Shown piece after piece: positions 13,498 through 41,474 of a stretch of 41,474 bases of DNA. Position numbers and translations under genes: made by a program. Under the pieces are notes generated by a model. It ran no database searches, had not been told where the DNA came from, and saw nothing but the letters and a program-made list of their open reading frames with translations. The DNA comes from Parvularculaceae bacterium (GTDB taxonomy: Bacteria > Pseudomonadota > Alphaproteobacteria > Caulobacterales > Parvularculaceae), in assembly GCA_021776435.1 (NCBI GenBank), contig JAJFFW010000111.1, positions 1 through 41,474 of the forward strand. Reading direction: 5' to 3'. The stretch's first letter is position 1; each line of letters opens with the position of its first letter.

Positions 13498-13512
13498 ACC
13501 TGGAGCATCAAA

Positions 13513-14850: not shown

Positions 14851-14852
14851 GT

Positions 14853-17702: not shown

Positions 17703-18175
17703 AGGAATTTTGGGCTGAGCGTTCCGAGCGCGAACATATTTTGATAATACTTGCTCTCGTTGTTTTTACAGTGGGCGTTTGTTATTTCTTTATCATCACA
17801 CCTCTTGGGCAGTGGCGTGACGCCGCCGCAGGCAGGGAAGCACGCGCCGAAGCGTTCTATGCGCTTGTTGCGGAGGTCTCGGAATCCGGTATTAGCGAGA
17901 GGGAGGCGATTGGAGAACGAGAGAGAAATACACCTTTGCGAAATACGCTGATGCAAACAGCACGAACCAACGAAATCACTCTCAGCTTTGTCAATAGACG
18001 TACTGATGGATCAATTGAGGTCAGTGCAGAACAGAGTAATCCAGAAAATTTATTCTTATGGATGCGTGAGCTTGATGAGCGTTATGCAATTCAGATCATC
18101 ACTGCTGATATCGCACAAGCAAATGACCAAGGGTCACTTGTGCGTGCTCAGCTCGTATTTCAGCGAATGCAATGA
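17699..18175 (+). CDS. gspM: Type II secretion system protein GspM
   Basis: This 158-residue bitopic inner-membrane protein has a short cytoplasmic tail, one membrane helix (about 15-37, ILIILALVVFTVGVCYFFII) and a periplasmic domain with coiled and ferredoxin-like parts (LFLWMRELDERYAIQIITADIA). GspM pairs with GspL. The ATG overlaps the gspL stop by four bases and the end overlaps gspN in the same way. Confidence 0.92.
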   Translation: MKEFWAERSEREHILIILALVVFTVGVCYFFIITPLGQWRDAAAGREARAEAFYALVAEVSESGISEREAIGERERNTPLRNTLMQTARTNEITLSFVNRRTDGSIEVSAEQSNPENLFLWMRELDERYAIQIITADIAQANDQGSLVRAQLVFQRMQ

Positions 18176-18993
18176 CAACTCTTGAGAATACAGAATTGAA
18201 TTCTCCTGATCGTTTCGTCGACATACGGTTATCTGCGCGCGTGTTGGCAGTTGTAGGGGCGGTGACTTTTGTTGTTACTTTCGTCGTGTTTGTCGCATTT
18301 CTCCCTGTCTCCATTTTGGGTAACCTTCTTTACGGAAAGCAGATCGTAAATTTCGACTATGAAACTGTAGAAGGAACGATCTGGAACGGCGCAGCACACG
18401 ATCTTAATATCTCAGGTGTTTCAATAGGCGAGGCACGGATTGCGTTTCATCCATTGTCGTTATTGACTGGCAAGATAGCAGCGAATTTTCAGACTGAAGG
18501 CGGCGCCGTAGAGAGCCGCGGAGTTCTGGTTCTTGGTGTCGGCGGTTTTACAGCTTTGCGGAATGTGGAGGCGGTGATTGATCATTCGGCATTTGCCAAC
18601 AATTATATTATGGGTGTGCCGGTTGAGGGGCGAACACAGACGATGATTTCCCAGGTTGTGTTCACCAAAAAGGGCTGCGCCCTCGCAGAAGGCTCTCTTT
18701 GGACGGACGTGCTGAATGAACCGGCCCTGCTCTTCACCCAGCAGGCATTTGAACTTTCTGGAAACATCAGATGCGATTCAAGTGATATTTTGATTGACCT
18801 TAGCGGTTTTAATGACAGTGGAGACGCCCAGATATTGATGCGCTTGCGGACTGGGTTGTATTATGATCTTGCTGTTACGGCATCACCTGCGAACCAAGAC
18901 ACGGAGCAGGCGCTCATGGCTTTTGGTTTTGAAGACAAGAATGGGGCGTTGACTTATAACTTGGCCGGTGAACTGAAGGGATCTGGATTATGA
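18172..18993 (+). CDS. gspN: Type II secretion system protein GspN
   Basis: This 273-residue protein has an N-terminal membrane helix (about 25-50, VGAVTFVVTFVVFVAFLPVSIL) and a periplasmic beta-rich domain with the T2SSN pattern (VEGTIWNGAAHDL, IAFHPLSLLTGKI, CALAEGSLWTDVL). GspN is present only in some T2SSs and its exact role is not settled. It overlaps gspM and the following lipoprotein gene by four bases each, so it is part of one translationally coupled chain. Confidence 0.92.
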   Translation: MTTLENTELNSPDRFVDIRLSARVLAVVGAVTFVVTFVVFVAFLPVSILGNLLYGKQIVNFDYETVEGTIWNGAAHDLNISGVSIGEARIAFHPLSLLTGKIAANFQTEGGAVESRGVLVLGVGGFTALRNVEAVIDHSAFANNYIMGVPVEGRTQTMISQVVFTKKGCALAEGSLWTDVLNEPALLFTQQAFELSGNIRCDSSDILIDLSGFNDSGDAQILMRLRTGLYYDLAVTASPANQDTEQALMAFGFEDKNGALTYNLAGELKGSGL

Positions 18994-22025: not shown

Positions 22026-22163
22026 ATGTCCCCTTTTTGGCCGACCGCATTGCGAGCGGGTTGCCACGCCCCAAACCACGTCCCAGTCATGCGCCTATTT
22101 TAAATCGCCGGCAGGCTCTCTTTCTCGTTCATTCCTTTGTGGCCATGTAAAATCAGCGCGGCG

Positions 22164-25100: not shown

Positions 25101-26099
25101 ATCGTTGAGCCGGGTCTTGTGAATATTGAGAACGGGGATCGCGACACGAAGGCCGGTGCCGGCGCCGCGGTTCGATTGATGGATATCCGGACGGCCCGGC
25201 TCTTCAAGTCGTTGCAATTGGCCGGTGGCGTTCGGCAGGCCAACCTCCGCGAATTGTGTCGCGATATTTCGACCGCCGCGTTCGAAGACGCGGAATATAT
25301 CCGCAGGGGGTAGAACATGCCAGGTCGGCATAGGGGCGAGAAACGGCAATACGCCTCGGGCGATAGCAGCAAGAGGGGGTGTGGTCGGGCAACCAACCGG
25401 AGAGTCTGTTGTCGGTTCGCCAGGGGAGCACAAAATCGCTGGCTCGCCGTCTCGTGTGTATGCTTCGCCGAGCACGTAGCGTTTGAACGGCAAAATGCCA
25501 TTGTTATAAGCAGCGCCGCCCCATAACATCGCACCCGTCGCCATCATTGAACGTTCGGCGGCGAGGATGTCGCGCATGTGACACGCGCCGCAAGACTCTC
25601 GCGCGACACGGTAATCCGATGGATTGACGAAACGAATGAACTCCGGCGACTCCTTGTTCAAGAGGGCGAAGCTGCGTTTCGGATTGGCGGAACTCGGGAA
25701 GTGCCAGCTTTCCGGGTATCGTGGTAATACGTGGGCTTTATCGCGTTCTTGAGCGTACTCAATGCTTTGTGTCGATAATCCCCTGGCGGAGAATACGGTC
25801 GCGTTACCGCCATGGCAGTCCGTACAACCCAACCGTATGTCGGCTGTGGGGTTATGCATCGTCGGGGCGTCGGTGGCGGTGTGGCAACTATGGCAGCCGG
25901 CGCTTTTCGCCTCAACCGCATTGCGATCCTGAAAGACAGGTGCAGGCGGCGCTGTGACACGCGTATAATCAATCTCGCGTGGTTTTTCTCCTTCCGACGC
26001 CAGAACAACGTTGCGCGTCAAAAACCCCAATACAAGCGCACCGGCGAGCGCCGCAAGGCGCGCCCAACGATAGAAGGATATGTTGCCTGCTTGTTTCAT
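22164..26099 (-). CDS. Exported decaheme cytochrome c with C-terminal LVIVD-repeat propeller
   Basis: This 1311-residue exported protein has an N-terminal hydrophobic signal (about 10-34, ending near VVLASEG). It carries ten CXXCH heme c motifs, with first cysteines at 69, 92, 170, 353, 410, 561, 588, 704, 715 and 821. After the last heme, from about residue 935 to 1245, come repeats of the LVIVD type (GLVVLDLDDP, GMKVFDVTKMDAP, GLVIIDVKNPEDP, GLKVLQLTSPA), predicted to form a beta-propeller. No lipobox or C-terminal anchor is seen. It starts four bases after the barrel gene stop, so it is co-translated with it. The probable role is the outermost electron carrier, with the propeller binding a partner, surface or substrate. 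It is not a recognised MtrC, OmcA or Omc homologue. Confidence 0.85.
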   Translation of the reverse strand: MKQAGNISFYRWARLAALAGALVLGFLTRNVVLASEGEKPREIDYTRVTAPPAPVFQDRNAVEAKSAGCHSCHTATDAPTMHNPTADIRLGCTDCHGGNATVFSARGLSTQSIEYAQERDKAHVLPRYPESWHFPSSANPKRSFALLNKESPEFIRFVNPSDYRVARESCGACHMRDILAAERSMMATGAMLWGGAAYNNGILPFKRYVLGEAYTRDGEPAILCSPGEPTTDSPVGCPTTPPLAAIARGVLPFLAPMPTWHVLPPADIFRVFERGGRNIATQFAEVGLPNATGQLQRLEEPGRPDIHQSNRGAGTGLRVAIPVLNIHKTRLNDPFTWFLGTNDQPGDYRSSGCASCHVIYANDREPRHALTYTQFGRDGETATVDPTIPKNESGHPIKHAFSRAIPTSQCMACHMHQPNMFLNSFLGYTMWDYESDAPHMWPKEQKYPTIEEQRAVLDRNPEQASVRGKWADLDFLRNVYDLNPDLKDTQFADYHGHGWNFRAILKRDQAGNLLDAENNIVAPDDPEKWRKADEGKFVSIGKNPGKTVHMMSIHAEVGMQCADCHYAQDSHGNGYLHGEVASAVEIGCRDCHGTAMNYPTLKTSGPAASPAGRDLSVLRNPDGRYRFEWVNRSGKRKLIQRSIIDTNLEWELSLVKDSVDPSSSNYNPKSARAKLLSRNAEGALKWGVEADMSNLAHKSDEMECYACHLSWTTSCGGCHLPIEANWKTEIHHYDGETTRNFATYNPQVARDQMFQLGKHQDTKNNKIAPVRSSSALILSSTNVNRERIYVQQPPISAIGFSSQAFAPHFPHTVRKTETKTCTDCHLSKDNDNNAIMAQLLLLGTNFVNFIGLHAWVGLDGAIEAVRVTEWEEPQALFGSYLHKYAYPDYYQAHVEQNNRELINWTRGDTFDRDNEFSGETGALEEIANVAQDTSGAVRCLQLRGEYLYTAQGKGGFRAYDVANIGNKAFSERIVTAPLSPLGQNMHVKTANATCMALPTNQPINPARNTEAMRKANGEQAFHPIYNYAIITDAVEGLILVNINTLADGEPRNNFFKRALTWNDGGVLTGARHITLAGHYAYVAVDAGLVVLDLDDPLKPKTTAVIPLNDMRASALQFRYLFVTDAEGMKVFDVTKMDAPKLVDGALIRLSDAQKIYLARTYAYVAAKKEGLVIIDVKNPEDPVVYQKVTFDGALNDARDVIVGTTNASLFAYVADGANGLKVLQLTSPASQPNFYGFSAEPKPELIAWRKTKKPALALSKGLDRDRAVDETGHQIAVLGRFGSRPFQRTEMEQLFLDDNGDPYFVSDQVDK

Positions 26100-26103
26100 C
26101 GCA

Positions 26104-27846
26104 TTAATAGGTCAACACCGCATTGAAAAGGACGGAATAATAAATTCCTCGTCTCTCATGATCGTCAAAAAGATCCTGAAACCCGTCGCCTGGCCGCAGG
26201 CCCGCACCGGACAGACGCAGTACAACATTTTGAATAAATCCGGGCCTGTAGATGACAGAGCCGGAGAAATCCCAGCCGATGTCTCTGTCGATATTTCCCT
26301 GGACGCGAAGCGCTTCCAATGTGTTCGTCTTGTGAAACCACAACCGGTTAGCATTAACGGAGATGCGCAGTGGCGCCATCACGTCAAAATCAGCGCCGAC
26401 ACCCGCAAGGATAATGCCTGGATTGTTGAAATTTGATTGGCCTTGTTCTTTCGACGATCTCAGATCTGGCAATACACCGTTGCGGCCCGAAACGCCGATG
26501 ACGCGACCACCACCGATAAATGGTATGGATTGCCGAACCCAGTAACTTGTATCGGCGCCGGCGAATTGCGGATTTTCTAAAATGGCGTCGAAGCCCCGTT
26601 CCGTATTGTCGTGCGGGTCGCCATCGCCACTTGCGAAAAGCCCCGACAGTCGAATCCGCATCCAATCCCGATCATAGGACGGCTCAATAGCAGCGAAAAA
26701 TGATCGTATATCTGCTGTTTTACCGGTGAAAATATTATTTCGATCTTCCCCCAACGCGTAATAGGCAGAGGTTGTAAGATTAAGCCGGCCAATTCGCCCG
26801 TCAGTATTGTAACCAAAATATACAATGTCGTAATTTCGGCCGCGCAAATTACCAATCAATGCCGGCCGCACCGGAAAGCCGTTTTTGTCGATCTCGATAT
26901 CGTCAGCTTCACGATTTAAATTGTAGGCGACAGTTATTTGACTGGTCAGCCCGGGAAACGGTAGATCTTGTCTGTAGAGATTGGCGAAAAAGACATAATC
27001 TTCGCGAGGGCTGGTCGTTATGTCGTTCAGCCCTGAATTTGTATCTTTTTCAAGGCGCGTGAAGGCGGCTAAATTGTATTGATACCGATTATTGTCACGG
27101 TTACCGAAAACCCGTACGCCAAGTTGGTTGTCCTGAAAGAGGAATCCTCTGAAGTCGCTCGAAAACGGCTGGATGCCGATGCGGACGGAATCGAAATCGT
27201 ATCGCTCAGAAACATTTCTGAGGTGGTAATCGACGAAAGCTTCTTGCAACCCGATAAAGCCGTCGTGGCGTTTGACACCTTCGGATGGCTCCACATGAAG
27301 AATGCGTAGCTCCTCCACCTGTGCGAAATTATAATTGAATACGGGCGTAAGGCGGAATTCGAGATCCTGCGGCTTATAGGCGGTTGATCCTTTGATCAAT
27401 GACAGGTTGGTGATCAGGTTTTGTGAAAAGAAGAAACTATCGGAGTCACCGAAGATATCGAGACTGTCAGGGCGCGACGTCGATTGAACGCCAACGGGCA
27501 GTGGAAATGAGCGTGGTTCCACGACGGTGTCCGAGATAAGAGAAGCGGCGAAAAACCAATCGTCCGTGCCAAAGATCGGTCTGTCGCCTTTCAACGTGTT
27601 TTGGTGATACGGATCCCACCATCGGGTTTTTAAAAGCCCTAGGCTTTCGGCGAGTCGCCATCGGTCCGGCACTGCGAGCATGCATTGTTCGAAAAGATCG
27701 TTTGGCGCACGACAATCTTTGTAATCGGATAGGCGCGGTGCTGGCACGGCGCCGCGATTGTTCGGCGTTTCTTCGGCCTCCTGCGCTGCACCAGAACTGA
27801 TCAAGGCGATGCTGGAGACGAGTGTCGAAAGGGTGATTGATCGCAT
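26104..27846 (-). CDS. Predicted outer-membrane beta-barrel protein
   Basis: This 580-residue protein has a signal peptide (MRSITLSTLVSSIALISSGAAQ). An N-terminal segment contains two cysteines (KDCRAPNDLFEQC) and the stretch WWDPYHQNTLKGDRPIFG. It then shows many alternating amphipathic strands ending in aromatic residues, and the C-terminus is VLFNAVLTY. This is the pattern of an outer-membrane barrel of perhaps 18-24 strands. I do not recognise a named family. The ATG at 27846 has AGGGGA upstream and lies four bases after the lipoprotein gene stop; longer starts would put the signal peptide inside. Packed directly before the decaheme gene, it is the best candidate for the sleeve or anchor carrying electrons across the outer membrane. 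Confidence 0.85.
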   Translation of the reverse strand: MRSITLSTLVSSIALISSGAAQEAEETPNNRGAVPAPRLSDYKDCRAPNDLFEQCMLAVPDRWRLAESLGLLKTRWWDPYHQNTLKGDRPIFGTDDWFFAASLISDTVVEPRSFPLPVGVQSTSRPDSLDIFGDSDSFFFSQNLITNLSLIKGSTAYKPQDLEFRLTPVFNYNFAQVEELRILHVEPSEGVKRHDGFIGLQEAFVDYHLRNVSERYDFDSVRIGIQPFSSDFRGFLFQDNQLGVRVFGNRDNNRYQYNLAAFTRLEKDTNSGLNDITTSPREDYVFFANLYRQDLPFPGLTSQITVAYNLNREADDIEIDKNGFPVRPALIGNLRGRNYDIVYFGYNTDGRIGRLNLTTSAYYALGEDRNNIFTGKTADIRSFFAAIEPSYDRDWMRIRLSGLFASGDGDPHDNTERGFDAILENPQFAGADTSYWVRQSIPFIGGGRVIGVSGRNGVLPDLRSSKEQGQSNFNNPGIILAGVGADFDVMAPLRISVNANRLWFHKTNTLEALRVQGNIDRDIGWDFSGSVIYRPGFIQNVVLRLSGAGLRPGDGFQDLFDDHERRGIYYSVLFNAVLTY

Positions 27847-27850
27847 CACT

Positions 27851-29863
27851 TCATTTCCCCTGACAGACATTTTGCTCATCTGAGTCCACAAAGGGCGAGA
27901 ACGGACAATTGATATAACGCAGGCGCACTTGTTTGCCGTTAACACTAATAACAATGCGGTCGGCGCGTATTCCGTTTAGCGCATTATTGATCGCGCCAAG
28001 TCGTTCGCCAGCGCGATCAACGCCGAGAAATGAGATCATGTCATCTTGATCGATGCCGTCGCCGGAAACGCCAATCCCCCCCACTAACACCGACCCGCGA
28101 TAGATCGGCACGCTGCCCGGAAAAATCTGAATGCCGTTCTGTAACCGATTTTGCATACCTCCTAGGCTCGCGATGTCGGGAAGGAAGGTGCATTGCGCAG
28201 GCGTATCGGCGCCGCCACCTAATGTATGCGTGATATGAATGAGAATATTCTCGATTATGAGTGACGCCTGGAGACCCGTCGCGAATGGACTCCATTGAGA
28301 GATCGGTAATGAGAATGGACCGTTCGGCGTTCCGACTTCACCGTCGGGGAAAAAAGGTCGAGAGAGATTGCCGCCAGCGCGGTCGGAAAAAGCAAAATCG
28401 CCTGTGAGGGCTGATGGGTCTGGGATAAAATTGCGTATGTCAGCAACGTAGCTTGCGGGCGATTTGGTAACGTTAGGGCTTGGAACCGCGGGCGGCGCCG
28501 TTGCAAGGAGATCAGAGGCCGCGATCGCGTTCGAAAAGAATGACGCTGTACGGGCTTTCTGTAGAGAGACATCGGTGCCGAAAATTGGTGCGTCCGGGCC
28601 GCGAACAATACCGAGAATGGCGCCGTTTGTATCGACCACTGATACGCTTACCTGAGCGCGACTGTCTAACGGTCTTCTGATCTGCGCCCGCGCCGCGGTC
28701 ATGACGGTGAATGCTTCTTCAAGGATGGTGCGAACCTCGGAAGCTGTTAGGGGTTGCGGCACGCCTGCGCCGTCCGTGCCGCCAGTGGGAGGGTATCGGT
28801 TATTGCCAGCGCCGTCGGTCAAAACGAACATGTCTGTGTTCGCATATTCCGTGACCGTCGCGGCGCGCATGCCCGAAGACTCAGCACCGTAGGCAACGCC
28901 TGCAATGACACCGCCCATAGTGGCGCCATCGAAATATGATGTTACGTCAACCAGGGCGCCGAAGACGCCGTTGACTGAAGCGAAGGATGCTGCTGCAGGG
29001 TCGGCGATCAGGTCGCTCGTTACAATATCGGAAAAGCGTAATGTGGCGCCGTCGACCGCGATGCGTTCGGCGCGAATTTCCGCCGGAGCTTCGAAACCTG
29101 TTGAGGCGGCCAGCGCGATCGCTTCTTCGTCACTGGCGTCAATGTCAAGTATGTTAAGGTCAAAGCCATAATCGCCGTCAGCGACGATGCCAATACCGCC
29201 AACGACAAAGCCATCCTTATAAAGAGGGAATCCGCCTGGGTCCGCCGCCAACCCTAATGGCGCACGGTGCGGGCCGATGCGTGCGCCGCCTGATATGAAG
29301 CGGGTAACAAGATCAGAACAGGGAAGTTGGCTAAACTGCACGCCAAAAAGTGGCCCGCTTTCCAGACCGGCTGTCGACGGGCTCGGTGGAAAATGTTGTT
29401 GAACGATCATGCTGGCGGTGCGGGTTGAAAAAGCATTGCCGCCGGACGAAAGATAAGCGCCGGTGATCGCTTTTGAAATCGCCGCAAGAGTCGCTGGCGC
29501 GGCCAGTCCCTGAAGTGCTGTGTTTGTTCCGGCGGGGCCGGCGCGCACAGTTGTCGTCGCCGAAGCGCCTGTCATCTGGAAGACGCCAAGCACGTTGCCG
29601 GCGCGATCGACGATGGCGATGGTAGCGGCCGTTTTGCGCGCGCGCGCTTCTTCTACGGCTTGCGCAATAATGCGTTCGACATCGCTGACAGTGAGATTAC
29701 GAAGCTCCGGTTTGAACAAAGGCGAAGCGCTAGGCGCCGGGGGTGGAGGCGGTGGCGCCGTTGGGGGAGGCAATATGGAGTTGCTGTCGCCTTCGCCCCC
29801 ACATCCGACGATAACGAAAAGTGCGGTCGCAAGCGCCGCCCATTGTCCCCACTTTTGCCTCAA
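27851..29863 (-). CDS. Lipoprotein with two GlcG/HbpS-like domains
   Basis: This 670-residue lipoprotein has the lipobox VIVGC with Cys21, followed by Gly-Gly and a proline-rich linker (32-47). Outer-membrane location is therefore likely. Two GlcG/HbpS-type domains (the family includes heme-binding HbpS) can be seen. The first, about 55-270, has LTVSDVERIIAQAVEEA, ATIAIVDRAGNVLGVF and FPLYKDGFVVGGIGI. The second, about 375-640, has LTASEVRTILEEAF, VSVVDTNGAILGIV and VPIYRGSVLVGGIGV. Both contain long insertions. The start is TTG at 29863 with GGGGG about nine bases upstream. It is packed four bases before the barrel gene. A role in heme or redox-partner binding at the outer membrane is inferred. 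Confidence 0.85.
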   Translation of the reverse strand: MRQKWGQWAALATALFVIVGCGGEGDSNSILPPPTAPPPPPPAPSASPLFKPELRNLTVSDVERIIAQAVEEARARKTAATIAIVDRAGNVLGVFQMTGASATTTVRAGPAGTNTALQGLAAPATLAAISKAITGAYLSSGGNAFSTRTASMIVQQHFPPSPSTAGLESGPLFGVQFSQLPCSDLVTRFISGGARIGPHRAPLGLAADPGGFPLYKDGFVVGGIGIVADGDYGFDLNILDIDASDEEAIALAASTGFEAPAEIRAERIAVDGATLRFSDIVTSDLIADPAAASFASVNGVFGALVDVTSYFDGATMGGVIAGVAYGAESSGMRAATVTEYANTDMFVLTDGAGNNRYPPTGGTDGAGVPQPLTASEVRTILEEAFTVMTAARAQIRRPLDSRAQVSVSVVDTNGAILGIVRGPDAPIFGTDVSLQKARTASFFSNAIAASDLLATAPPAVPSPNVTKSPASYVADIRNFIPDPSALTGDFAFSDRAGGNLSRPFFPDGEVGTPNGPFSLPISQWSPFATGLQASLIIENILIHITHTLGGGADTPAQCTFLPDIASLGGMQNRLQNGIQIFPGSVPIYRGSVLVGGIGVSGDGIDQDDMISFLGVDRAGERLGAINNALNGIRADRIVISVNGKQVRLRYINCPFSPFVDSDEQNVCQGK

Positions 29864-29930: not shown

Positions 29931-31433
29931 TTAAATATATCCGTGTGCTAACATTGCTTCGCCAACGCGGACAAAACTCGCTACATTGGCGCCCGTTTGA
30001 TAATCGGCGACACCGTTTACAACCGGGGCATATTCCACGCACTGCGTATGAATGGAGCGCATAATTCGCTCAAGTTCTTTTTCCACCTGGTCACGTGTCC
30101 AAACCAGGCGCATGGCGTTTTGCGCCTGCTCAAGGCCCGACACTCCAACACCTCCAGCATTTGCCGCCTTAGCCGGGCCGAATAAAACGTTGTTATGCTT
30201 TAAAACATGAATCGCCTCTGCGGTCAGAGGCATGTTAGCCCCTTCCGCCAGCACTTCGAGACCATTGCGGCACATGGTGTCAGCCATGCTTTCATCGATT
30301 TCATTTTGCGTTGCGCATGGAAGGCCAACCTGGCAGGGAACGGCCCACGGGCTCTTGCCAGCGTGGTAAGTTACGCCGTGCGCTTTATTGGCAAAAACGG
30401 AAAGCGATTCGCGGCGCACTTCCTTGACGTTTTGTAGAATCCTGAACGAGTCTTCGTTGAAGCCATCCTTAACATGTGCGAAGCCGCGACTGTCTGAGAC
30501 GGCGACGACTTTTGCACCCAACTGCATAGCGCGTTCGAGGGCGTAGAGAGCAACATTGCCGGCGCCGGAAACCACGACGGTCTTGTCTTTTATTGTTTTG
30601 TTGTGATGTTGCAGCATGTCTTCGGCGAAAACGACCGCGCCATAGCCGGTCGCCTCCTTGCGAATTTCACTGCCGCCGAAAGCGAGCCCCTTGCCAGTGA
30701 GAACGCCAGTGTAGCGATTGGCGAGCTGCTTATATTTACCGAATAGATAGCCGATCTCGCGTCCTCCGACGCCAATATCACCGGCTGGCACGTCGACGAC
30801 TTCGCCAATATGTCGGTATAACTCACTCATCATCGAATGACAGAAACGCATGATCTCTAGGTCCGAACGACCCTTCGGATTAAAGTTAGACCCACCTTTA
30901 CCACCACCCATCGGCAGGCGTGTCAAAGAGTTTTTGAAAGTTTGCTCAAAGCCTAAGAATTTCAGTATACTGAGAGTAACACTGGGGTTGAACCGTAAAC
31001 CGCCTTTATACGGACCGAGAGCACTGTTAAATTGAACGCGATAGCCTTTGTTCGCATGCGGTATGCCGTTATCATCTTCCCATACGACACGAAACATAAT
31101 GACCCTATCGGGCTCTGTCATACGTTCGAGGAGTCTCGCGTCGCGGTATCGATGATTATCAAGGTAAAAGGGCATCACCGTTTCGACGAACTCGAATACA
31201 GCCTGATGAAATTCCTGTTCATGCGGGTTGCGTCGTTTAAGACCGGCCATGAAGTCGTCGATCTCGCTTACGGCGCCGCGCCCGCCCGACCCGATGGCAA
31301 ATTTCGCGGTTGGCGCGCTGGGGTCTCTCGTGGGTGGGTTGGTCATGTTTTGATGCTCCGATTCAGATGATGACAGTTTGTCCGTGCGCTGCCCTGCCGC
31401 CGCTTGCGGATTGTGCTTCTTTCGCCAAAACAT
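29931..31433 (-). CDS. gdhA: NADP-specific glutamate dehydrogenase
   Basis: This 500-residue enzyme interconverts glutamate and 2-oxoglutarate plus ammonium with NADP(H). It matches the hexameric 450-residue E. coli GdhA family: YKGGLRFNPSV, the catalytic lysine loop LPMGGGKGGSNFNPKG, DIGVGGREIGYLFG and the dinucleotide site VVSGAGNVALYALE. The first about 50 residues are an extra hydrophilic extension. The ATG at 31433 has GGGAGA seven bases upstream. The internal ATG at 31346 (MTNPPTRDPS) has GGAG upstream and would give a standard length, so both starts are possible. It sits inside the cytochrome block, with 80 bases before and 67 after, an unexpected place for this housekeeping enzyme. 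Confidence 0.95.
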   Translation of the reverse strand: MFWRKKHNPQAAAGQRTDKLSSSESEHQNMTNPPTRDPSAPTAKFAIGSGGRGAVSEIDDFMAGLKRRNPHEQEFHQAVFEFVETVMPFYLDNHRYRDARLLERMTEPDRVIMFRVVWEDDNGIPHANKGYRVQFNSALGPYKGGLRFNPSVTLSILKFLGFEQTFKNSLTRLPMGGGKGGSNFNPKGRSDLEIMRFCHSMMSELYRHIGEVVDVPAGDIGVGGREIGYLFGKYKQLANRYTGVLTGKGLAFGGSEIRKEATGYGAVVFAEDMLQHHNKTIKDKTVVVSGAGNVALYALERAMQLGAKVVAVSDSRGFAHVKDGFNEDSFRILQNVKEVRRESLSVFANKAHGVTYHAGKSPWAVPCQVGLPCATQNEIDESMADTMCRNGLEVLAEGANMPLTAEAIHVLKHNNVLFGPAKAANAGGVGVSGLEQAQNAMRLVWTRDQVEKELERIMRSIHTQCVEYAPVVNGVADYQTGANVASFVRVGEAMLAHGYI

Positions 31434-31513: not shown

Positions 31514-32851
31514 TCATTGTTCCAAAAACGTCTCGATTTTGCGCAGCGCGTCCCTAAATCTAATCTGGTCGTACGTAGAAGGGCTTTGAACATGATTGCT
31601 CGCCTGCTCAATAGCCGTTGTCATTTCTGTGGAATTCAATTCTAGGTCAGCTGATAGTCGTTGCACTGCAAAGAGCGCTTGCTCGGCGGCGGCGTAATTT
31701 GTGTACCGTTCCGCGAGCGAAGCATCGACGACTTCGCGAAGAATGGCGCGAACCATTGCAGGATCTGAGAAATCCGCAGAAAGAACGCGTGACGCCATTT
31801 CATCTGTCGTCGCGCGAAGAACGATCGCAGAACGACGAAATTGCTTACTGCTTTGTAAAGATGCAGCGTGCAAAGCTCGTCCGTTGTTTTCTAAACGTTC
31901 AGCGAGTACTGTATCAAGCCCTCGCGCCGCGGCGATTAACATGAAAAGATTGGCGTCGTTAAGAATAGGAACGCCGGGACCGAGCGGACGGAGCGGATTG
32001 GGCCGCCAGCTCAAATCCTTTAAACCGCTTGAAATTGGCTGGTGACAGGCGTGGCAGTCGAAAAAGAAAAGCTCAGGGAATGGACCTTCTCCGCTGATCT
32101 TTTTATCAAGCAACAGATCTAGTGTACGTTGTAAGGCGCTTACCTGGCCAATCGCCCAGACCTGGGCGCCCGGGGCGACCGTTTTACGTGTGCTATAGCC
32201 AGCGTCGGTGCGATGGTGCTGTTGAATGGTTGTATAAAGATCGAGCTCGAATTTAAGTCTCGGATGTCCGGCGCCCATGATCTTATGCGAGACGAATTGA
32301 TTTTTAGCGCCGGAACCAAGGTGACAGTTTAAGCACAGCTGAGCGCGTGCGGAGGGGTCTTCGGTCGGATACAATCCGGCCTCGACGTTCAGCGCATGGT
32401 CTGCGCTGCTACGGTGAAATGCGAGCCAGTCTTGTGCGCCTCCGTGACAGGCTTCACAACCGACTCCGTCACTGATCTGAAACCGTTCGCTGCGCAGCGT
32501 ATCGGGCACATTGTCAGCGTGACAGTCTAAACACTCGTCAGCCTTTTGCGCTGGGCCAATCCCCAAATTGCGAGCGATACGCTGAGCATGGGGCGTCAAC
32601 AAAACCTCATACGCGCGTGAGTGCGCGCCTGATTCACCGAACGCCCGCCAACGGAAGTATTCGTTTTGTCCGACGACAGGACCGGCGCCCGGTCCCGCCA
32701 CCTGATCGCCATGGCATCCGGCGGTCGCGCAGCTCGCAACGCCGGTATGATTATATCCGTCCATCAACGGCGCCGACGGCGCCTGCGCATACACGGACGC
32801 AAGGGTGCACAGCGCAAATGAAAAGATAGATATTATCACTGTTCGGAACAT
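31514..32851 (-). CDS. Periplasmic pentaheme cytochrome c (c554-like)
   Basis: This 445-residue protein has a cleavable signal peptide (MFRTVIISIFSFALCTLASVYA). Its first heme site is the unusual CX4CH (C41-C46-H47, CATAGCH). Four normal sites follow: CLDCH, CEACH, CLNCH and CHACH. The pattern of hemes in the N-terminal 260 residues resembles cytochrome c554-type multiheme proteins. The C-terminal 150 residues have no heme and are helical. The ATG at 32851 overlaps the upstream gene stop (TGATG). It probably shuttles electrons in the periplasm between the anchored decaheme protein and the outer membrane. An enzymatic role cannot be excluded. Confidence 0.85.
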   Translation of the reverse strand: MFRTVIISIFSFALCTLASVYAQAPSAPLMDGYNHTGVASCATAGCHGDQVAGPGAGPVVGQNEYFRWRAFGESGAHSRAYEVLLTPHAQRIARNLGIGPAQKADECLDCHADNVPDTLRSERFQISDGVGCEACHGGAQDWLAFHRSSADHALNVEAGLYPTEDPSARAQLCLNCHLGSGAKNQFVSHKIMGAGHPRLKFELDLYTTIQQHHRTDAGYSTRKTVAPGAQVWAIGQVSALQRTLDLLLDKKISGEGPFPELFFFDCHACHQPISSGLKDLSWRPNPLRPLGPGVPILNDANLFMLIAAARGLDTVLAERLENNGRALHAASLQSSKQFRRSAIVLRATTDEMASRVLSADFSDPAMVRAILREVVDASLAERYTNYAAAEQALFAVQRLSADLELNSTEMTTAIEQASNHVQSPSTYDQIRFRDALRKIETFLEQ

Positions 32852-34677
32852 CACTTCGCCCCATCACTGAATTTTACGACGGCGTTAGTCGATGTCATCA
32901 AGGGCGCGTTATTGCTATCGTCATGATAGCTGTGGCAGGTAAGACAATCCGAAGCGATCGCCTTTGTTCCGCTCGTATCATTATGGCAGGTGCGGCAGAC
33001 GGTGATGCTAGGCATTAGAACGTCCGAAGAGTGCGACGATGTTTCTGCGCGATGACAGTCGACGCAATCCGTGTTGCCGGCCATGTGCTGAGCATGGCTA
33101 AATTGAGCTTTCGGCAGATACCGGTTGGTGAGTTTTACGGGTTGCATGCGCGGCATCCCACTGTTGGCGCCGGAATCAATCGTCGTGTGGCATTTCTGAC
33201 AAATGCCGTCTTTGGAGAATATACGGGCGATCATATTTTGGGTGTTGGTGCGCGCGTCGACAAAAGCGCTGCTCTGCGATTGTGCGCGGCGCGCGCGCGC
33301 CTCAGCGCTCAACTGGCGCTCCAAGACACCCGACGGCCGATCGCCGAGCAATAACTCCGTCGCTTTGGCCAAATAAAAGTCCTCCAGCGTAGCGCGCACG
33401 TCTTCGGGGTCGCCATGGGGAAGGAATCTCACGTTAGCATTTTGCTCCGTGACGAATGCCAGCGAATGACAATCGCCGCAATGAAGCTCCATTTCAATTG
33501 GCGTGATAAATGCCCCCGCAGCGTCCACTTGATGACAATCGGCGCAGTCTAGCTTATCGCCGTAACGCGCCTGCGATACAGGTCCCAAAGTAGCAAGTTT
33601 GCGGATGACCTCTTTGTCTTTCAGATGAAAGTCATGGGGAAATTTAAGGCCGTTATTTTCCTTGGGATGCTCGACCAGCGAAATACGTTGCACAGAAAGA
33701 ATGTCAGGTTGTGGATCAAGAATGATTCTGGGTTTGAATTCCGGATGCCAATGGGAGAAGTTTATGACGTTGACAAGCGTTGTTTCGTCGAACCGTCTGT
33801 CCATGCTGCTATGGCACTCAACGCACATTGATGACGATGTCGGCGTGACGCCGTTCGCGCCATTGTGCTCGAAGTGACAGGAACCGCATCGCTCTTCCGG
33901 TATGTTGAGCTGGTTGTGCAAGCTGGATAGCCATCTTTCTCTGGTGGTTTTATCCGGTGCTGCAGCAACGAGTGATTGCGCAGGGGCGTGATTGCGCGTC
34001 TGGCTATGGCACGATAAACAAACGTCGTCTCGAACCCGCACAAAGGTTTGTTCATGGCATACCCGGCAGTTCGCACCAAGATTTGCATGAGCCGATGACA
34101 AGGCGCCGGAGAGCCAATTCTGATTGGCGATCGGTGATAGGTAATCAATTGTGCTACGTTGCTGTCTCGGTTCACCTGATTCATCTAGGTAAACAATGAG
34201 TGGAATAGCAAGAAAGACGGTAAAGACCAAAACGGTGACTGCCCACGCACTAATTCGTTTGTCCGGCGCGTAGCCTTTCATCGAGAAGATCTCGTCTTCA
34301 TCGCCGCTTTCGCCGACAGCCGTAGGAGCTTCAACAAGCTCTATTTCGATTAAGAGATCGGCGTCTGCATCTGCGGGTCCTAGAGTAATCTTGTAGGGCC
34401 CTATTCGAACGTCGGCGTCTTGATCAATAGAGAGGTCACGACGACGAATAAGTGCCCCATCTACTCGCACGCGGTAATCCGTGCTCGCTTCAATCCGAGC
34501 CTTTTCTGGAGTTCTACAAATGAGGCGTGCATGATGAAGTCCAACACGCAAATCCGGCAGATGCACATCGCAATCTGTCGCGCGCCCAAATGTGACATTG
34601 TCCTTATCGTAGATCGTCGGCCTGACAGTAATGCGACCGCCAGGACGTCGTCGAATGAATTCAACTCGTATCGCCAT
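32851..34677 (-). CDS. FHA domain - membrane helix - decaheme cytochrome c fusion
   Basis: From the ATG at 34677 this is 608 residues. Residues about 23-98 form an FHA fold (FGRATDCDVHLPDL, LHHARLIC). The FHA Arg32 and His49 are kept, but the usual phosphothreonine-contacting Ser is Gly46. An acidic linker leads to one membrane helix (142-164, SAWAVTVLVFTVFLAIPLIVYL), then a periplasmic part with ten CXXCH sites between residues 204 and 578. The basic KR before the helix supports a cytoplasmic FHA and a periplasmic cytochrome. It starts seven bases after the membrane b-type gene, and its stop overlaps the next ATG. Upstream in-frame starts add a non-FHA tail and were rejected. It likely receives electrons from the b hemes. 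I know of no described protein with this architecture. Confidence 0.85.
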   Translation of the reverse strand: MAIRVEFIRRRPGGRITVRPTIYDKDNVTFGRATDCDVHLPDLRVGLHHARLICRTPEKARIEASTDYRVRVDGALIRRRDLSIDQDADVRIGPYKITLGPADADADLLIEIELVEAPTAVGESGDEDEIFSMKGYAPDKRISAWAVTVLVFTVFLAIPLIVYLDESGEPRQQRSTIDYLSPIANQNWLSGALSSAHANLGANCRVCHEQTFVRVRDDVCLSCHSQTRNHAPAQSLVAAAPDKTTRERWLSSLHNQLNIPEERCGSCHFEHNGANGVTPTSSSMCVECHSSMDRRFDETTLVNVINFSHWHPEFKPRIILDPQPDILSVQRISLVEHPKENNGLKFPHDFHLKDKEVIRKLATLGPVSQARYGDKLDCADCHQVDAAGAFITPIEMELHCGDCHSLAFVTEQNANVRFLPHGDPEDVRATLEDFYLAKATELLLGDRPSGVLERQLSAEARARRAQSQSSAFVDARTNTQNMIARIFSKDGICQKCHTTIDSGANSGMPRMQPVKLTNRYLPKAQFSHAQHMAGNTDCVDCHRAETSSHSSDVLMPSITVCRTCHNDTSGTKAIASDCLTCHSYHDDSNNAPLMTSTNAVVKFSDGAK

Positions 34678-34684
34678 TACTGAA

Positions 34685-35560
34685 TCACCAGAAGAAGAAA
34701 ACGCTGACGATATGCGCAACGAGAGCGGCGAGAAGCGCAAAGGCCAGCGGAACGTGAAAGTGTAACCATAAACGAAGAAGGGTTGTAAAACGGATGTGCC
34801 TGCGAGTGCGCAACAACAGGGCGTTTTTGCGCTCCAGGATCGCCATTATGTCTTCAAGCGGGCGACGCATTTCTTCCGGCGCCGATGGCGCCGCATGGCG
34901 CAGACGTTTGAGGGCGTGGGTTGTGGCGCATCGCTTTTGCGTGGCGGAGATCGATGTGAATAGACCCGGACGTATCTTGGTTTTGCTGATGGCGCGTTTT
35001 ACTTCCCGCACATACGCCGGATCAAGGGGCTGGGCTGCTTCCCGCAATTGACGGTCGATGCTACGGATCGCCGTCAGCAGTTCAGCCTGGCTTCGTTGCG
35101 CGCGATTGTCGCTCATGCGCCGTGGCGTCGTCGCATAGAAATAAACGCCGTAGAAACCCGAAATGATCACGAACACCATCAGCGTATAGGCAAGAGTGTG
35201 CACATTGAGGCCGAATTGAAAACCGGTGTGCAATGTCGCCAACACCAACAGTGACGCCCCTAGATAAACATGCGCAGACGTCCATCCTTTCAGGTTCCAA
35301 TGACCAGGCGTTATTGCGCGTTTGCGCAAACCAATAAGCATTAGCCAGACGATCAAAAGGGTGGAGATTGTCCCGAGTGTATAGCCGTACCAGGTGCCGC
35401 CATTGTGTCGTGGTTCGACATCGACGAACAGATAAACAATGATGCTCACGATGCTGATAACCACAGCCGCCTTCAAGTAGCGATACCGTTTGTGGCGGAG
35501 AAAGCCTTCATGTCGGATGGGCGTATCCGAAGATTGGGTATGACTATCGAGCGCTGTCAT
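34685..35560 (-). CDS. Predicted di-heme b transmembrane electron-transfer protein
   Basis: This 291-residue membrane protein has five predicted helices (about 32-49, 59-78, 95-116, 123-144 and 264-291). Helix 3 carries H97 and H111 and helix 5 carries H269 and H283, each pair exactly 14 apart. That is the geometry used for two stacked b hemes in transmembrane cytochromes. Basic residues place the N-terminus and a 118-residue loop (145-262), rich in Arg and Lys, in the cytoplasm. The C-terminus then lies on the periplasmic side. I do not recognise a named family. It lies seven bases after the flavin/iron-sulfur gene and seven before the FHA-decaheme gene, so a role carrying electrons across the inner membrane between them is a natural inference. 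Confidence 0.82.
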   Translation of the reverse strand: MTALDSHTQSSDTPIRHEGFLRHKRYRYLKAAVVISIVSIIVYLFVDVEPRHNGGTWYGYTLGTISTLLIVWLMLIGLRKRAITPGHWNLKGWTSAHVYLGASLLVLATLHTGFQFGLNVHTLAYTLMVFVIISGFYGVYFYATTPRRMSDNRAQRSQAELLTAIRSIDRQLREAAQPLDPAYVREVKRAISKTKIRPGLFTSISATQKRCATTHALKRLRHAAPSAPEEMRRPLEDIMAILERKNALLLRTRRHIRFTTLLRLWLHFHVPLAFALLAALVAHIVSVFFFW

Positions 35561-35567: not shown

Positions 35568-38078
35568 TTAATCCTGCGATCCGCTGGCGATCTGCAGATA
35601 ATCGTCGGGTGAGATTCGTATAGCCGCCCCTGTGGGGCACGCGCGTACGCATGCCGGCCCGCCTTTTATGCCGGCGCACATGTCGCATTTAACGGCGAGT
35701 TTCGGTGCGGTTTCGTCTTTTTTCTTGTGGCTATCGACCCATTCTCGTTTCGGTTCTCCGGGGCCTGGCCCGACGCCAAACGCCAGCCAAGAAAAAAGGC
35801 CGGGCTTTTTCGGCGGTACCGCTGCCATTTGAATCACACCGTACGGGCAGTTGCGTTCGCAATTACCGCACCCGATGCATTTATCGTCGATGAAGACTTC
35901 GCCGTCAGGACCGCGATGGATGGCGTCGGGAGGGCAATCGGTCATACAATGTGGATGTTCGCAATGACGACACGATGTCGGCACATGAAGATAAGCATAG
36001 GTGTTGCCCGCTTCCCGATCCAGTCGAGAGATCCCTTCGTGAATTTCTGCGCAAGCCACTTCGCAGTTGTCGCACCCTATGCAAAGAGTTTCATCAATAA
36101 CCAGGGCGTCAGTAGCTTCGCTCAATCCCTCCTGTTCCAAAAGGAATCTTGCGATCGAACTATGCATGTCAACGACAGATGAAAAACTTTCACGCTTCGC
36201 TTCGATATAGTCATTGACGCGACGGCGTTGTGCGACTTGTTTTTCGACGGTTTGACGAAATTCAGAATTTTCGGCTAATAGGCGTTCAAAAACCTCACCC
36301 GGCAATTTTACCACTTCCGATTTAATCGCTGCACGGACAGTAGCCGTCCTATAGCCATCGTAGAATAGCGACATTTCCCCGACATAATTGCCGGCGAGGA
36401 TATAAGACAGAAAAACGTCTTTTCCGCCGATTTGTTTTTCTACGACGGCGCTGCCGGAGCGAATGATGTAAATGTCCGTCGAGTGATCCCCCTCGTTGAT
36501 AAACGCCTCGCCGGCTCTAAGGGGGATGATCTCCGAGCGCGAGAGGATTTCACCAACATCGTGCGGCGTGAGTACGCGGCCGAAAATTTGTCCGATTTGC
36601 CGTTCCATCGACAGGCGTTCCATGCGCCGTTTCACGCCTGGTACGGATGCGATCAGTTTCAGGGTCGCATTGCGTGGAATTTCGAGCAGCATCGTCGGTT
36701 CGCCAGCGCGTACCGTGGCGGTGCGCCGTCGGCCGGATATTAAACCCAATTCACCGAAGATCGAGCCGGCTTCAATGGGCACTGTTTTTTTCTTATCATT
36801 GGGATCTATTTCAACGCGTACCGAGCCGTCAATGATGGCGAAAATCGACGAACCGATGTCATTTCGGTTGACGATCACCTCGCCGAGTCTTTTGTAATGC
36901 GTCATTGAAGTCAAAAGAAATTCACGCATCTGCAGTGGCGAGACGTCTTGAAGAATCTCTACGCCGGTGCGGATATAATCGAGCCACTCGTCGACGCTGC
37001 GGTGTACCGACGCTTTTTCGAAGAGCAGTTCGAGCAGCGGTGTGTCAGGCGGTTGCAGGTCAGTATTGCCAGCGATGAATTCGACGACGTCGTGGCCCTG
37101 GTTCATGCAGTGTTTGATCAGAGGAAAACCGGCAAGCGCGCCGATAATATATAGGCCGGGCACGCTGCTCTCATATTGGGCTGAGAGTATTGGAAACGCT
37201 TCTCGGTCAGGGCCAGTGAACTCGACGCCCGCCGCTTCGACGAATTTCCGCGGTGGGGCTGCGCCAAGTCGAGCGATGACGCGATCACAGGCGAGCCTTG
37301 CCTCGCCATCCTTGGTGTCGACAACGGCAACCCACGGATTTTCGCCAGATCCACCCTTTTCGATTCGGAGAAGTGAAGCCTGAGTAATAAAATCGAGGCG
37401 GCCGTCGTCACGCGCCTTATGAAGGGCTTGAACATTGGCTTCTTTGGCGCGCGGAAATCCGTCAGCGCGCTGAAGGAGCGTGACGAGGTTGCCTTGTTCG
37501 GGATCAGCGGCAAGGCCTAATGCATTCTCGATACCTGCATCGCCGCCGCCGATGACAACGATGTGCTCGTCGAAATATTCCTTTGGATCATCAAGTTGAT
37601 ACTGCACGAAAGGTAAATCGCCGCCAGGCTGAGAGACCTTGTTCGGGTTGCCTTGCACGCCAATCGCGAGAACGACAAAATCGGCGGTAATGGTTTCACC
37701 ATCGGCCAGGGTAAGCTGGAAATTCCCCTGCGATCCTTGGATCGATACAATATCAGAATTTAAACGCACATTGATTTTCAGGGCGTCGGCGCCATCGTCC
37801 CACCGGTCTATGATACTCTCGCGGGAACCGGCCTCAAATGCGACGTCGCTGCGTAGCGGCAGCTGATCCGGTGTCGCCATAATATATTTGCCGCGCTGAT
37901 ATTTATAGATCGTGTCGGAAAGGTGCGACGTCTTTTCCAAAAGAATGTGCGATATTCCACGAGCGGAGGCGCGCGCGGCGGCGCTCAACCCGGCAGGGCC
38001 TGAACCGACAATTGCGACTTTGAAACTCTCCAAAAGCCCTGTTCCCCCACCTGCCGCCGCCTTGATAATACCCGACAA
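35568..38078 (-). CDS. NAD(P)H/FAD oxidoreductase fused to two cyclic-nucleotide domains and a four-[4Fe-4S] domain
   Basis: This 836-residue soluble protein has no signal peptide. Residues 18-340 are a TrxB/YpdA-like two-dinucleotide fold with FAD site GSGPAG (25-30) and NAD(P) site GGGDAG (177-182); the thioredoxin-reductase CXXC is absent. Two cyclic-nucleotide-binding domains follow (about 385-470 and 510-600). Both keep the Glu and Arg of the phosphate cassette (FGELGLISGRRRTATV; VGEMSLFYDGYRTATV). Residues 660-820 are NrfC/DmsB-like with sixteen cysteines in four sets (666-676, 703-715, 734-744, 798-814), enough for four [4Fe-4S] clusters. The start is TTG at 38078; a TTG at 38033 with AGGG upstream is an alternative. 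Likely role: passing NAD(P)H electrons to the membrane b protein under second-messenger control. Confidence 0.88.
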   Translation of the reverse strand: MSGIIKAAAGGGTGLLESFKVAIVGSGPAGLSAAARASARGISHILLEKTSHLSDTIYKYQRGKYIMATPDQLPLRSDVAFEAGSRESIIDRWDDGADALKINVRLNSDIVSIQGSQGNFQLTLADGETITADFVVLAIGVQGNPNKVSQPGGDLPFVQYQLDDPKEYFDEHIVVIGGGDAGIENALGLAADPEQGNLVTLLQRADGFPRAKEANVQALHKARDDGRLDFITQASLLRIEKGGSGENPWVAVVDTKDGEARLACDRVIARLGAAPPRKFVEAAGVEFTGPDREAFPILSAQYESSVPGLYIIGALAGFPLIKHCMNQGHDVVEFIAGNTDLQPPDTPLLELLFEKASVHRSVDEWLDYIRTGVEILQDVSPLQMREFLLTSMTHYKRLGEVIVNRNDIGSSIFAIIDGSVRVEIDPNDKKKTVPIEAGSIFGELGLISGRRRTATVRAGEPTMLLEIPRNATLKLIASVPGVKRRMERLSMERQIGQIFGRVLTPHDVGEILSRSEIIPLRAGEAFINEGDHSTDIYIIRSGSAVVEKQIGGKDVFLSYILAGNYVGEMSLFYDGYRTATVRAAIKSEVVKLPGEVFERLLAENSEFRQTVEKQVAQRRRVNDYIEAKRESFSSVVDMHSSIARFLLEQEGLSEATDALVIDETLCIGCDNCEVACAEIHEGISRLDREAGNTYAYLHVPTSCRHCEHPHCMTDCPPDAIHRGPDGEVFIDDKCIGCGNCERNCPYGVIQMAAVPPKKPGLFSWLAFGVGPGPGEPKREWVDSHKKKDETAPKLAVKCDMCAGIKGGPACVRACPTGAAIRISPDDYLQIASGSQD

Positions 38079-39095: not shown

Positions 39096-39156
39096 CGAAT
39101 TGACCGAATTTGGGTAGAATTTTTACGTGCACTGCGGTCTGACCGTAGGGGGGATA

Positions 39157-40566
39157 ATGCTCGCTTTACGAAATTTGGGCCCATTTGCGGTCTTCAGCAT
39201 TTTCTGCATGGGCTTGTTGTTGAGTTCAAGCATTTCATTTGCCCAAGAGCCTGAGGAATCCGCACGGGAGGCAGTTGAGCGCGATTTACGGGCGGTTGAT
39301 GAGCGTGACGCTACGCAGGATGACCGTCTAGACTCTACAATTTCATTTGAGCGCGTCCTCGCCGCACCTGACGACGTGCAGCTCAATCTGGCTTATGCAC
39401 GCGAGCAGATCGCCGCCGGAGATCTTAAAGAGGGCAGTGCTACACTTGAGCGCGTGTTATTGCTGAATCCGGAACTCGGTCAGGTTCGTGTCCTTTACGG
39501 GCTTGTTCTTTACCGGTTGGGTCTGCTTGATCGTGCGCGCTTTGAACTTGAGACGGCGCTTAAAAACGGAGATCTATCAACGACGGTGCGCACCGAGGCG
39601 GAAGTCTATTTAAAGAAAATCAAACGCCAGCTGCGTACAACGCATGGATCGCTCATCGTTACAACTGGCGTTGAATGGGATCAGAATCGTAATCAAGCGC
39701 CTTCGAGCGGGCAAATCCTTTTTGTAGATATTCCCCTACCCGCAGGGGCGCGGAATGGGGATCTTGCATATATAACCTCTGTTCAGGGAAACATCAGCCA
39801 CGATCTTGGTTTTCAGGATGGCCATACGCTCAACGGTGAAGCCGCCTATTACCGGTCGAATAAAATAGAAGTTGACAGTCTCGATCTCGACGCTGTGACG
39901 GCGGCGTTCGGTGGAACATGGTATTCGGGACGAATGTCGGTCACGCCGCGGCTGCGCGCCGGACAGTTCTGGCTCGACGACAATGACTATTTGCGGACGT
40001 TAGGCGGTGAAGTTGAAGTCATTATGCGATGGCGCCAGGATCTAAACTTACATCTTGTTGTTCGCGGAGAAGACGAAGACTTTCGTGTCGTACCTAATTT
40101 CCTCGCGGCGGCATTGCGCTCTGGACGGCGAATAAGTACGCGTGCGGGCGTGACATGGCGCGTCAGCCCAACCCAGTCGATCCGGGTTGAAGGTCTTTAC
40201 ATGGACAAAAAGGGAGAAACCGGCTTCGAGTCATATGACCGATACGGCGGTTACGCACAGTATAGTCGATTGTACAGACGCGGAGCATTTACGCAGATCG
40301 GATTATGGGCTGAAAACTCTGACTATGACGCCAGTGACTCTTCTTTCGTAAGTGTTACCGAACGCAGTGAATGGCTTTATCGCGCGCGCGTTACGGCGGG
40401 CGCGCCACTATCTTTTTTTGCTCCCGGACTCAGCATGCCCAAGGCGGTTTCGGACATCAACCTGATCGCACAATATGAATATGAGACAGTAGATTCGAAT
40501 ATTACTAATTTCGATTACAACACACATAAAGTAAGTTTACTGCTTTCGAAGCGTATTGCGTTTTAA
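39157..40566 (+). CDS. Outer-membrane protein with N-terminal TPR segment and C-terminal beta-barrel
   Basis: This 469-residue protein starts at the ATG at 39157, which has a strong AGGGGGG Shine-Dalgarno; an in-frame upstream GTG was rejected. The signal peptide ends near SISFAQ. Residues about 65-150 form TPR-like helical repeats (VQLNLAYAREQIAAGDLKEGSATLERVLLLNPELGQVRVLYGLVLYRLG). From about 155 onward there are alternating strands, ending in the classic outer-membrane terminus LLLSKRIAF with C-terminal Phe. The layout resembles SLAM-like or DUF560-type barrels with a periplasmic TPR neck. It is followed after 11 bases by a FecR-domain gene, so the two probably work together at the outer membrane. 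Confidence 0.85.
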   Translation: MLALRNLGPFAVFSIFCMGLLLSSSISFAQEPEESAREAVERDLRAVDERDATQDDRLDSTISFERVLAAPDDVQLNLAYAREQIAAGDLKEGSATLERVLLLNPELGQVRVLYGLVLYRLGLLDRARFELETALKNGDLSTTVRTEAEVYLKKIKRQLRTTHGSLIVTTGVEWDQNRNQAPSSGQILFVDIPLPAGARNGDLAYITSVQGNISHDLGFQDGHTLNGEAAYYRSNKIEVDSLDLDAVTAAFGGTWYSGRMSVTPRLRAGQFWLDDNDYLRTLGGEVEVIMRWRQDLNLHLVVRGEDEDFRVVPNFLAAALRSGRRISTRAGVTWRVSPTQSIRVEGLYMDKKGETGFESYDRYGGYAQYSRLYRRGAFTQIGLWAENSDYDASDSSFVSVTERSEWLYRARVTAGAPLSFFAPGLSMPKAVSDINLIAQYEYETVDSNITNFDYNTHKVSLLLSKRIAF

Positions 40567-40577
40567 TGGGGGATACC

Positions 40578-41474
40578 ATGCTTCAGGTTACAGAGATTTT
40601 AAAAACTGGATTGAAGCAAGTCGGCGTTGCTTTGATCCTTGCTGTGACGTCCCTTGCGGCGCACGCGGCGGAATGTTTCGATCGGCAGACAGATGATCCA
40701 AAAGCTGGTGATGCAACTGCCGTTGTAGGTCCAAGCGTGGGTGTGCTTAGGGCGAGCACGGATGGATTCTTACGTCCTGACGCCGGGGATGATTTATTCA
40801 CCGGAGATCGTGTGCGCACTGGGGCGGATTCGCATCTTCAACTCAAATTGTGCGACTGGAGTACTTACACATTTTCCCCCGATAGCGAGTCGGATATCAG
40901 CGAGTTTTTCGATGAGGATGGCGTGGGCCGCCGACGTGTGATCAACTTTTTGCGGGGGGGATTCCGATTAGCCTCAGGTCGCGACACGGAGCCCGGCTCG
41001 ACCGAGGTGGAAATTCAAGAGTCCGGCGTCACCATGGGCGTGCGCGGTACAAATGTAATCCTGGTTGAACTCGACGGAGTCGTTTATGCCTTGCTGGAGG
41101 GGCCGGCGCGTGAAAATTCCGGTCTTTCACCACAAGGACTCGTTGATTTCTGGGAAGGTAACAGTGAAGCGATTATTTCGCGCTTGAAGCGGCCAGGGTA
41201 TGCGGTGCGAATTGATGCAGACGGCGTGTCTTCGCCGTTTCGTGCGGATAGAGAACTTTTGCAACGAATCTACGGGGCTTTCGTCGCTTTGAATCAGGAA
41301 ACCGATGGTGAATTGACCGACGGCGCTGGCGACCCATTAGATAATTCCGGGCAGGGCGGACAAGAGGGCGTCTTCTTTCAGCAGGTTGTGGTCAAGGAAG
41401 GTAATCAGAAAAACGAAAATACAGAAAATAACCCCGAACAACCGGTCCTAAATGGCATTACACTTGAAGAACTG
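40578..41474 (+). CDS. FecR-domain periplasmic protein (3' end beyond the window)
   Basis: An open frame of 299 codons runs from the ATG at 40578 to the window end without a stop. GGGGGATACC stands just before the start. The protein begins with a signal peptide (VGVALILAVTSLAAHAAE). It then shows a FecR fold: VVGPSVGVLRAS, a GDRVRTGADSHLQLKL segment, FLRGGFRLASG and VTMGVRGTNVILVEL. A Gln/Asn/Glu-rich low-complexity stretch follows near the cut. Stand-alone FecR proteins of this kind are usually periplasmic or surface scaffold proteins rather than sigma regulators. It is 11 bases after the TPR/barrel gene and in the same operon. Confidence 0.85.
   Translation, partial: MLQVTEILKTGLKQVGVALILAVTSLAAHAAECFDRQTDDPKAGDATAVVGPSVGVLRASTDGFLRPDAGDDLFTGDRVRTGADSHLQLKLCDWSTYTFSPDSESDISEFFDEDGVGRRRVINFLRGGFRLASGRDTEPGSTEVEIQESGVTMGVRGTNVILVELDGVVYALLEGPARENSGLSPQGLVDFWEGNSEAIISRLKRPGYAVRIDADGVSSPFRADRELLQRIYGAFVALNQETDGELTDGAGDPLDNSGQGGQEGVFFQQVVVKEGNQKNENTENNPEQPVLNGITLEEL

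Follow-up and report, generated by a model that had tools for sequence, protein, structure and literature searches.

The closest described systems to the locus reported here are the putative porin-cytochrome clusters PCC3 and PCC4. According to the sections of PMC5566968 devoted to them, these clusters encode an inner-membrane protein of about 300 amino acids, with two WX3HX13H motifs and an SGXXG motif, that is read as a di-haem cytochrome b. Inward electron flow in iron oxidisers is proposed for both clusters in the same sections. In PCC4 subgroup II, a pfam13247 Fe-S gene lies upstream of the inner-membrane protein and is one gene with it in the annotation of one species (PMC5566968).

The stretch of DNA analysed here (the window, 41,474 bp in total, from a Parvularculaceae genome) carries a flavoprotein gene, named A, with a membrane protein and multihaem cytochromes encoded next to it. 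A is probably the cytoplasmic entry of an NAD(P)H-driven transmembrane electron exporter gated by a cyclic nucleotide, of which cAMP is the most likely; from the sequence comparisons presented below, we put the probability of this reading at roughly 60%. The genes concerned are the following:

35568–38078, minus strand: A, flavoprotein with two successive cyclic-nucleotide-binding (CNB) domains and a four-cluster ferredoxin, 836 aa
34685–35560, minus strand: B, membrane protein of 291 aa, b561/ferric-reductase-like, predicted di-haem cytochrome b
32851–34740, minus strand: C, cytoplasmic FHA/YscD-like domain, one transmembrane segment and a periplasmic decahaem cytochrome c (10 CXXCH)
31514–32854, minus strand: D, tetrahaem c554-like periplasmic cytochrome
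27851–29863, minus strand: F, predicted lipoprotein with HbpS-like repeats
26104–27954, minus strand: G, predicted outer-membrane beta-barrel of about 18 strands with an AlgE-like fold
22164–26099, minus strand: H, decahaem cytochrome with a signal peptide and an LVIVD-repeat C-terminus
40566–41474, plus strand: first part of a FecR-domain gene that runs past the end of the window

Compared with the PCC3 and PCC4 sections of PMC5566968, B carries the same two WX3HX13H motifs and SGXXG motif as the inner-membrane protein, and a porin (here G) likewise occurs together with multihaem cytochromes. A, too, matches PF13247, the comparison with the Fe-S gene of PCC4 subgroup II being by description only. 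The haem numbers differ, with 10 (C), 4 (D) and 10 (H) here versus 4, 5 and 10 in PCC4 and medians of 34 and 21 in PCC3. The main text of PMC5566968 lacks the words ‘cyclic’, ‘FHA’ and ‘ferredoxin’.

A is a single unbroken frame of 836 codons. The TTG at position 38078 was taken mechanically as the start; an in-frame TTG at residue 16 is a possible later start, and the alignment of the orthologues begins at about residue 12. This alignment holds 89 sequences, the window and 88 further loci, with identities down to about 44%. The domains of A are:

37089–38024, minus strand: YpdA/TrxR-like FAD and NAD(P)H domain, residues 19–330, with GSGPAG and GGGDAG motifs
36648–36887, minus strand: CNB domain 1, cassette E443 (codon 36750–36752) and R452 (codon 36723–36725)
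36267–36521, minus strand: CNB domain 2, cassette E568 (codon 36375–36377) and R577 (codon 36348–36350)
35604–36116, minus strand: HycB/DmsB-like ferredoxin domain, 16 invariant cysteines in four [4Fe-4S] motifs

Residues 19–328 matched Pyr_redox_2/3 in Pfam (E 3e-26 to 3e-30), and the nearest solved relatives of this domain are YpdA/Bdr. A shares the FAD/NAD(P)H domain family with these enzymes and with the low-molecular-weight thioredoxin reductases, but it is fused to CNB and Fe-S domains and reaches only 114.3 bits with the curated NCBIfam model of YpdA/Bdr, which requires 339.9. The conserved cysteine of YpdA (GGGPCG) is replaced by Ala29, and by Ala, Ser or Gly in the orthologues. As C264 and C324 are the sole cysteines besides the 16 of the Fe-S domain, A has no CXXC dithiol, as an earlier note on this DNA had observed. 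A function as thioredoxin reductase or bacillithiol reductase was ruled out on the lack of both the CXXC and the YpdA cysteine.

The CNB pair scored 118.9 bits with PF00027 (cNMP_binding, cut-off 27.5), in stretches at residues 398–477 and 520–604 approximately. The cassettes read FGELGLISGRRRTATV (E443/R452) and VGEMSLFYDGYRTATV (E568/R577). PKG and PKA regulatory chains were among the best PDB profile matches; A has the tandem CNB domains and canonical cassettes of the PKA regulatory subunit and PKG, but no kinase, and its CNB pair lies between redox modules. The residue following the cassette arginine is variable in the alignment (G/T/N/S in the first cassette and T/S/V/N in the second), so that a preference for cAMP or cGMP is not readable from it.

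Several 4Fe-4S families of Pfam matched residues 655–825. The cysteines are located at positions 666, 669, 672, 676, 703, 706, 711, 715, 734, 737, 740, 744, 798, 801, 810 and 814, an arrangement of four [4Fe-4S] motifs like that of HycB, DmsB and FdhB. In A, however, it forms the C-terminal domain of a flavoprotein and not the partner of a molybdo-enzyme or hydrogenase.

All 16 cysteines as well as E443, R452, E568 and R577 are kept in 89/89 sequences. Mean conservation is lowest in the CNB domains (0.72 and 0.68), followed by the flavin domain (0.76) and the Fe-S domain (0.85). The four parts lie on a single chain in every full-length orthologue inspected; a few frames from the order-level search contain one in-frame stop. 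The combination of this architecture with invariant residues is far beyond chance, and since a single frame was found in all relatives, a frame artefact or two joined genes could be ruled out. The earlier note had placed a flavin module, two CNB domains with intact ligand Glu/Arg and sixteen Fe-S cysteines on one chain, all of which holds. It had named loss of the cassette residues among orthologues, or flavin and Fe-S domains occurring as separate proteins, as evidence to the contrary, and neither was seen.

A phylum-wide sample of 398 genomes contained 15 with A and an order-level sample of 299 contained 22; a species-level genome collection contained at least 563 stretches with relatives. 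Among the named carriers are Marinicaulis, Sphingomonas, Sphingobium, Novosphingobium, Erythrobacter, Phenylobacterium and Brevundimonas, and the window protein has its nearest named relatives in Parvularculaceae and Marinicaulis (78–80% identity). As some loci in the two collections probably come from one organism (e.g. L071 and G349), the counts of loci are not entirely independent. One close relative at this locus (L027) comes from a metagenome-assembled genome named ‘Biocath_Alpha_06’, which suggests a biocathode community.

A, B and C are consecutive and on the same strand in 74 of the 75 loci with enough downstream DNA. B contains the motifs W93x3H97x13H111, W265x3H269x13H283 and SG(134)xxG; both WX3HX13H motifs were present in 82/84 orthologues, and together with SGXXG in 78/84. 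The family of cytochrome b561 and Ni-hydrogenase cytochrome b was matched weakly by 47/54 B proteins (best E 6e-8) and Ferric_reduct by 8/54. A Foldseek comparison of the B model with the PDB gave no meaningful match, and the assignment of B thus rests on its motifs and these family matches. In two genomes of one genus (L107 and L108), A and B form one frame of 1118–1123 aa, which argues that they work together. Ten haem motifs were counted in 76/78 orthologues of C. In L107–L109, from other families, A-B-C is present and D, F, G and H are not nearby; along with the adjacency of C, this points to C as a direct partner.

NADPH oxidases and ferric reductases have a topology of NAD(P)H, FAD and two transmembrane b haems. 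A and B would share this order, and the few Ferric_reduct matches of B agree with it, but the flavin domain is of another family, an Fe-S wire would lie between flavin and haems and the electrons are predicted to go to a decahaem cytochrome.

Many genomes have an additional set, D, F, G and H, partly at the A locus. The G gene occurs in the window and at many loci, and its model is an AlgE-like barrel with a mean pLDDT of 64. H was found in 11/15 genomes with A and in 0/383 without A. Since H and A are on different contigs or hundreds of kilobases apart in some of these genomes, their link is more than adjacency. Neither H nor G had a sequence match in the PDB. With identities of 65–71% among most orthologues compared and 59% for the most distant one, H is unusually conserved and may have an enzymatic role instead of serving as a wire.

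Other genes were noted around this set. An NADP-specific glutamate dehydrogenase is encoded within the cytochrome cluster (29931–31433, minus strand); such a gene is near A in 25/88 loci, in varying orientation. A type II secretion operon (7926–18993, plus strand) lies near the cytochrome genes. Systems of this type export surface cytochromes in Shewanella, and by analogy the operon in the window might serve the secretion of H. At 19509–22079 (minus strand), a CPA1-type Na+/H+ antiporter has a C-terminal CNB domain with seemingly intact cassette Glu/Arg (FFGELALITNDPRNADV), and is a possible second cyclic-nucleotide effector in the window.

The right end of the window and contig C83 of this genome overlap in exactly 141 bases, and this overlap sequence is unique in the genome. 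C83 carries the rest of the FecR gene, followed by a CHASE2 class III cyclase and a CRP-type regulator. The cyclase begins at the equivalent of window position 43038, at a distance of about 5 kb from A. It passed the cut-off for both the CHASE2 (E 9e-53) and the cyclase domain (E 3e-20). Its motifs (VDKYMGDG and EYSMLGD) hold the substrate Lys and Ser, which we take to fit class IIIb adenylate cyclases. The run from 39127–41474 (plus strand) onto C83, comprising TPR/beta-barrel-like, FecR, CHASE2 cyclase and CRP-type genes, is divergent from A, and its order is kept in three other loci (L025–L027).

A class III cyclase was located within 25 kb of A in 13/21 genomes tested, mostly of the CHASE2 type. 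Random placement would give 0.62 for the 8/14 sampled genomes, 0.36 for the 5/7 left when one genome per family is taken, and 0.13 for the 5/7 further genomes of the order search with a cyclase within 10 kb; as the genomes are related, these chance figures are only indicative. No cyclase was present near A in G034, G153 and G154. Most cyclases examined were CHASE2-type and one was FIST-type, beside a second copy of A in G001. This copy (L110, contig C17 of G001, 1472–8962) adjoins the FIST-domain cyclase divergently; B and C were not detected with it.

A phosphodiesterase resembling CpdA and SpdA was found in 53/56 fully flanked loci (at least 9 kb on both sides of A), mostly directly following C, and a cyclase or phosphodiesterase in 55/56. 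In G127, G349 and G396 it is the sole match in the genome and lies a few kb from A. A search of the window genome and three close relatives did not find it. The catalytic motifs DxH, GD, GNHD and GHxH are present, with scores below the curated NCBIfam cut-offs of both CpdA (3',5'-cAMP; 90.6 vs 225) and SpdA (2',3'-cNMP; 129.7 vs 400). Locus L128 has cyclase, phosphodiesterase, A, B, C and CcmF on one strand. A scan of the window for CRP-type sites gave 20 matches with 14.7 expected and was not informative.

For the cofactors, ligand, gating, direction and acceptor we infer the following scheme. NAD(P)H would reduce FAD in the YpdA-like domain of A, from which electrons would pass to the four-cluster Fe-S domain, a flavin to Fe-S transfer that the earlier note had suggested and that finds support here. 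They would then cross the inner membrane through the two b haems of B to the decahaem C in the periplasm and, in many species, continue to D and the outer-membrane and surface set F, G and H. The CNB pair would act as a gate that switches the transfer between flavin and Fe-S modules; as it sits between them, the ligand could draw them together or apart. The signal would be made by the CHASE2 cyclase and removed by the CpdA/SpdA-type phosphodiesterase. The note's suggestion of a dehydrogenase gated by cAMP or cGMP gains from the recurrence of these genes at the locus, the gating itself being a reading of the sequences. Its dehydrogenase keeps the NAD(P)H/FAD domain and is revised in one respect: A would not stand alone but bring electrons from the cytoplasm into a transmembrane cytochrome system.

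The main alternative for the role of the cyclase is that cyclase and phosphodiesterase act only through the neighbouring CRP-type regulator, A being a constitutive NAD(P)H:cytochrome b oxidoreductase whose CNB domains are a scaffold or bind another ligand. CRP-family proteins can bind other ligands, and the window genome and L025–L027 have the regulator next to the cyclase. Nevertheless, this explanation is unlikely, as both cassette pairs are invariant in domains that are otherwise the least conserved of the chain, and in dozens of loci with a phosphodiesterase beside A-B-C the search used picked up no separate CRP gene, its matches there falling inside A.

A direct, post-translational second-messenger gate is given even odds. 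In it, cyclase, phosphodiesterase, A, B and C would form a self-contained cassette, and bound cAMP would switch the passage of electrons from cytoplasmic NAD(P)H to the periplasm or surface. The same estimate covers the spread of this cassette, which would be common among Alphaproteobacteria and extend to other families of Pseudomonadota.

For the direction, the main alternative to export is inward flow from periplasmic or extracellular donors through C and B to the Fe-S and flavin modules, to produce NAD(P)H or supply quinone, as has been proposed for PCC3/PCC4 in iron oxidisers. Many A-carrying genera are aerobic heterotrophs, which does not favour such a chain, and no energy-coupling subunit was seen to power the uphill step from c haems to NAD(P)+. 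The motifs that B shares with the PCC3/PCC4 proteins speak for it, as do the flow to the quinone pool drawn for similar proteins and the pfam13247 gene upstream of the inner-membrane protein in PCC4 subgroup II, yet the PCC3 and PCC4 sections of the same paper (PMC5566968) do not mention a flavin/NAD domain. On balance, inward flow seems improbable. A and B could also be a cyclic-nucleotide-controlled NAD(P)H:quinone oxidoreductase, with C and the other cytochromes downstream of the quinol pool. The b561/Ni-hydrogenase family that B resembles often has quinone-reactive members, but the near-constant adjacency of C and the A-B-C loci lacking D, F, G and H nearby (L107–L109) make this proposal just as doubtful.

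All domains of A are already known, and the part formed by B, C and the porin resembles PCC3/PCC4. New here are an input protein that joins flavin, tandem CNB and Fe-S domains, and the linkage of its gene to those for a cyclase and a phosphodiesterase. No description of the A architecture was found in the open-access literature searched, which does not prove that none exists, and the main text of a survey of outer-membrane multihaem cytochromes (PMC11475568) does not mention the A-carrying taxa. For a literature match in Magnetospirillum, no tie to A was established.

The gated exporter proposed here would differ from the usual use of the messenger. Bacterial cAMP is mostly known to act via transcription factors, and the cAMP control known for extracellular electron transfer, for example in Shewanella, is transcriptional. 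If the reading is correct, A would be a redox enzyme that reads cAMP directly, so that cells could switch electron disposal within seconds, and would represent a new class of cAMP effector. It would then also make electron flow in biofilms and on bioelectrodes accessible to genetic control. With this reading, an unannotated operon of hundreds of sequenced bacteria, many of them culturable sphingomonads, receives a function that can be tested.
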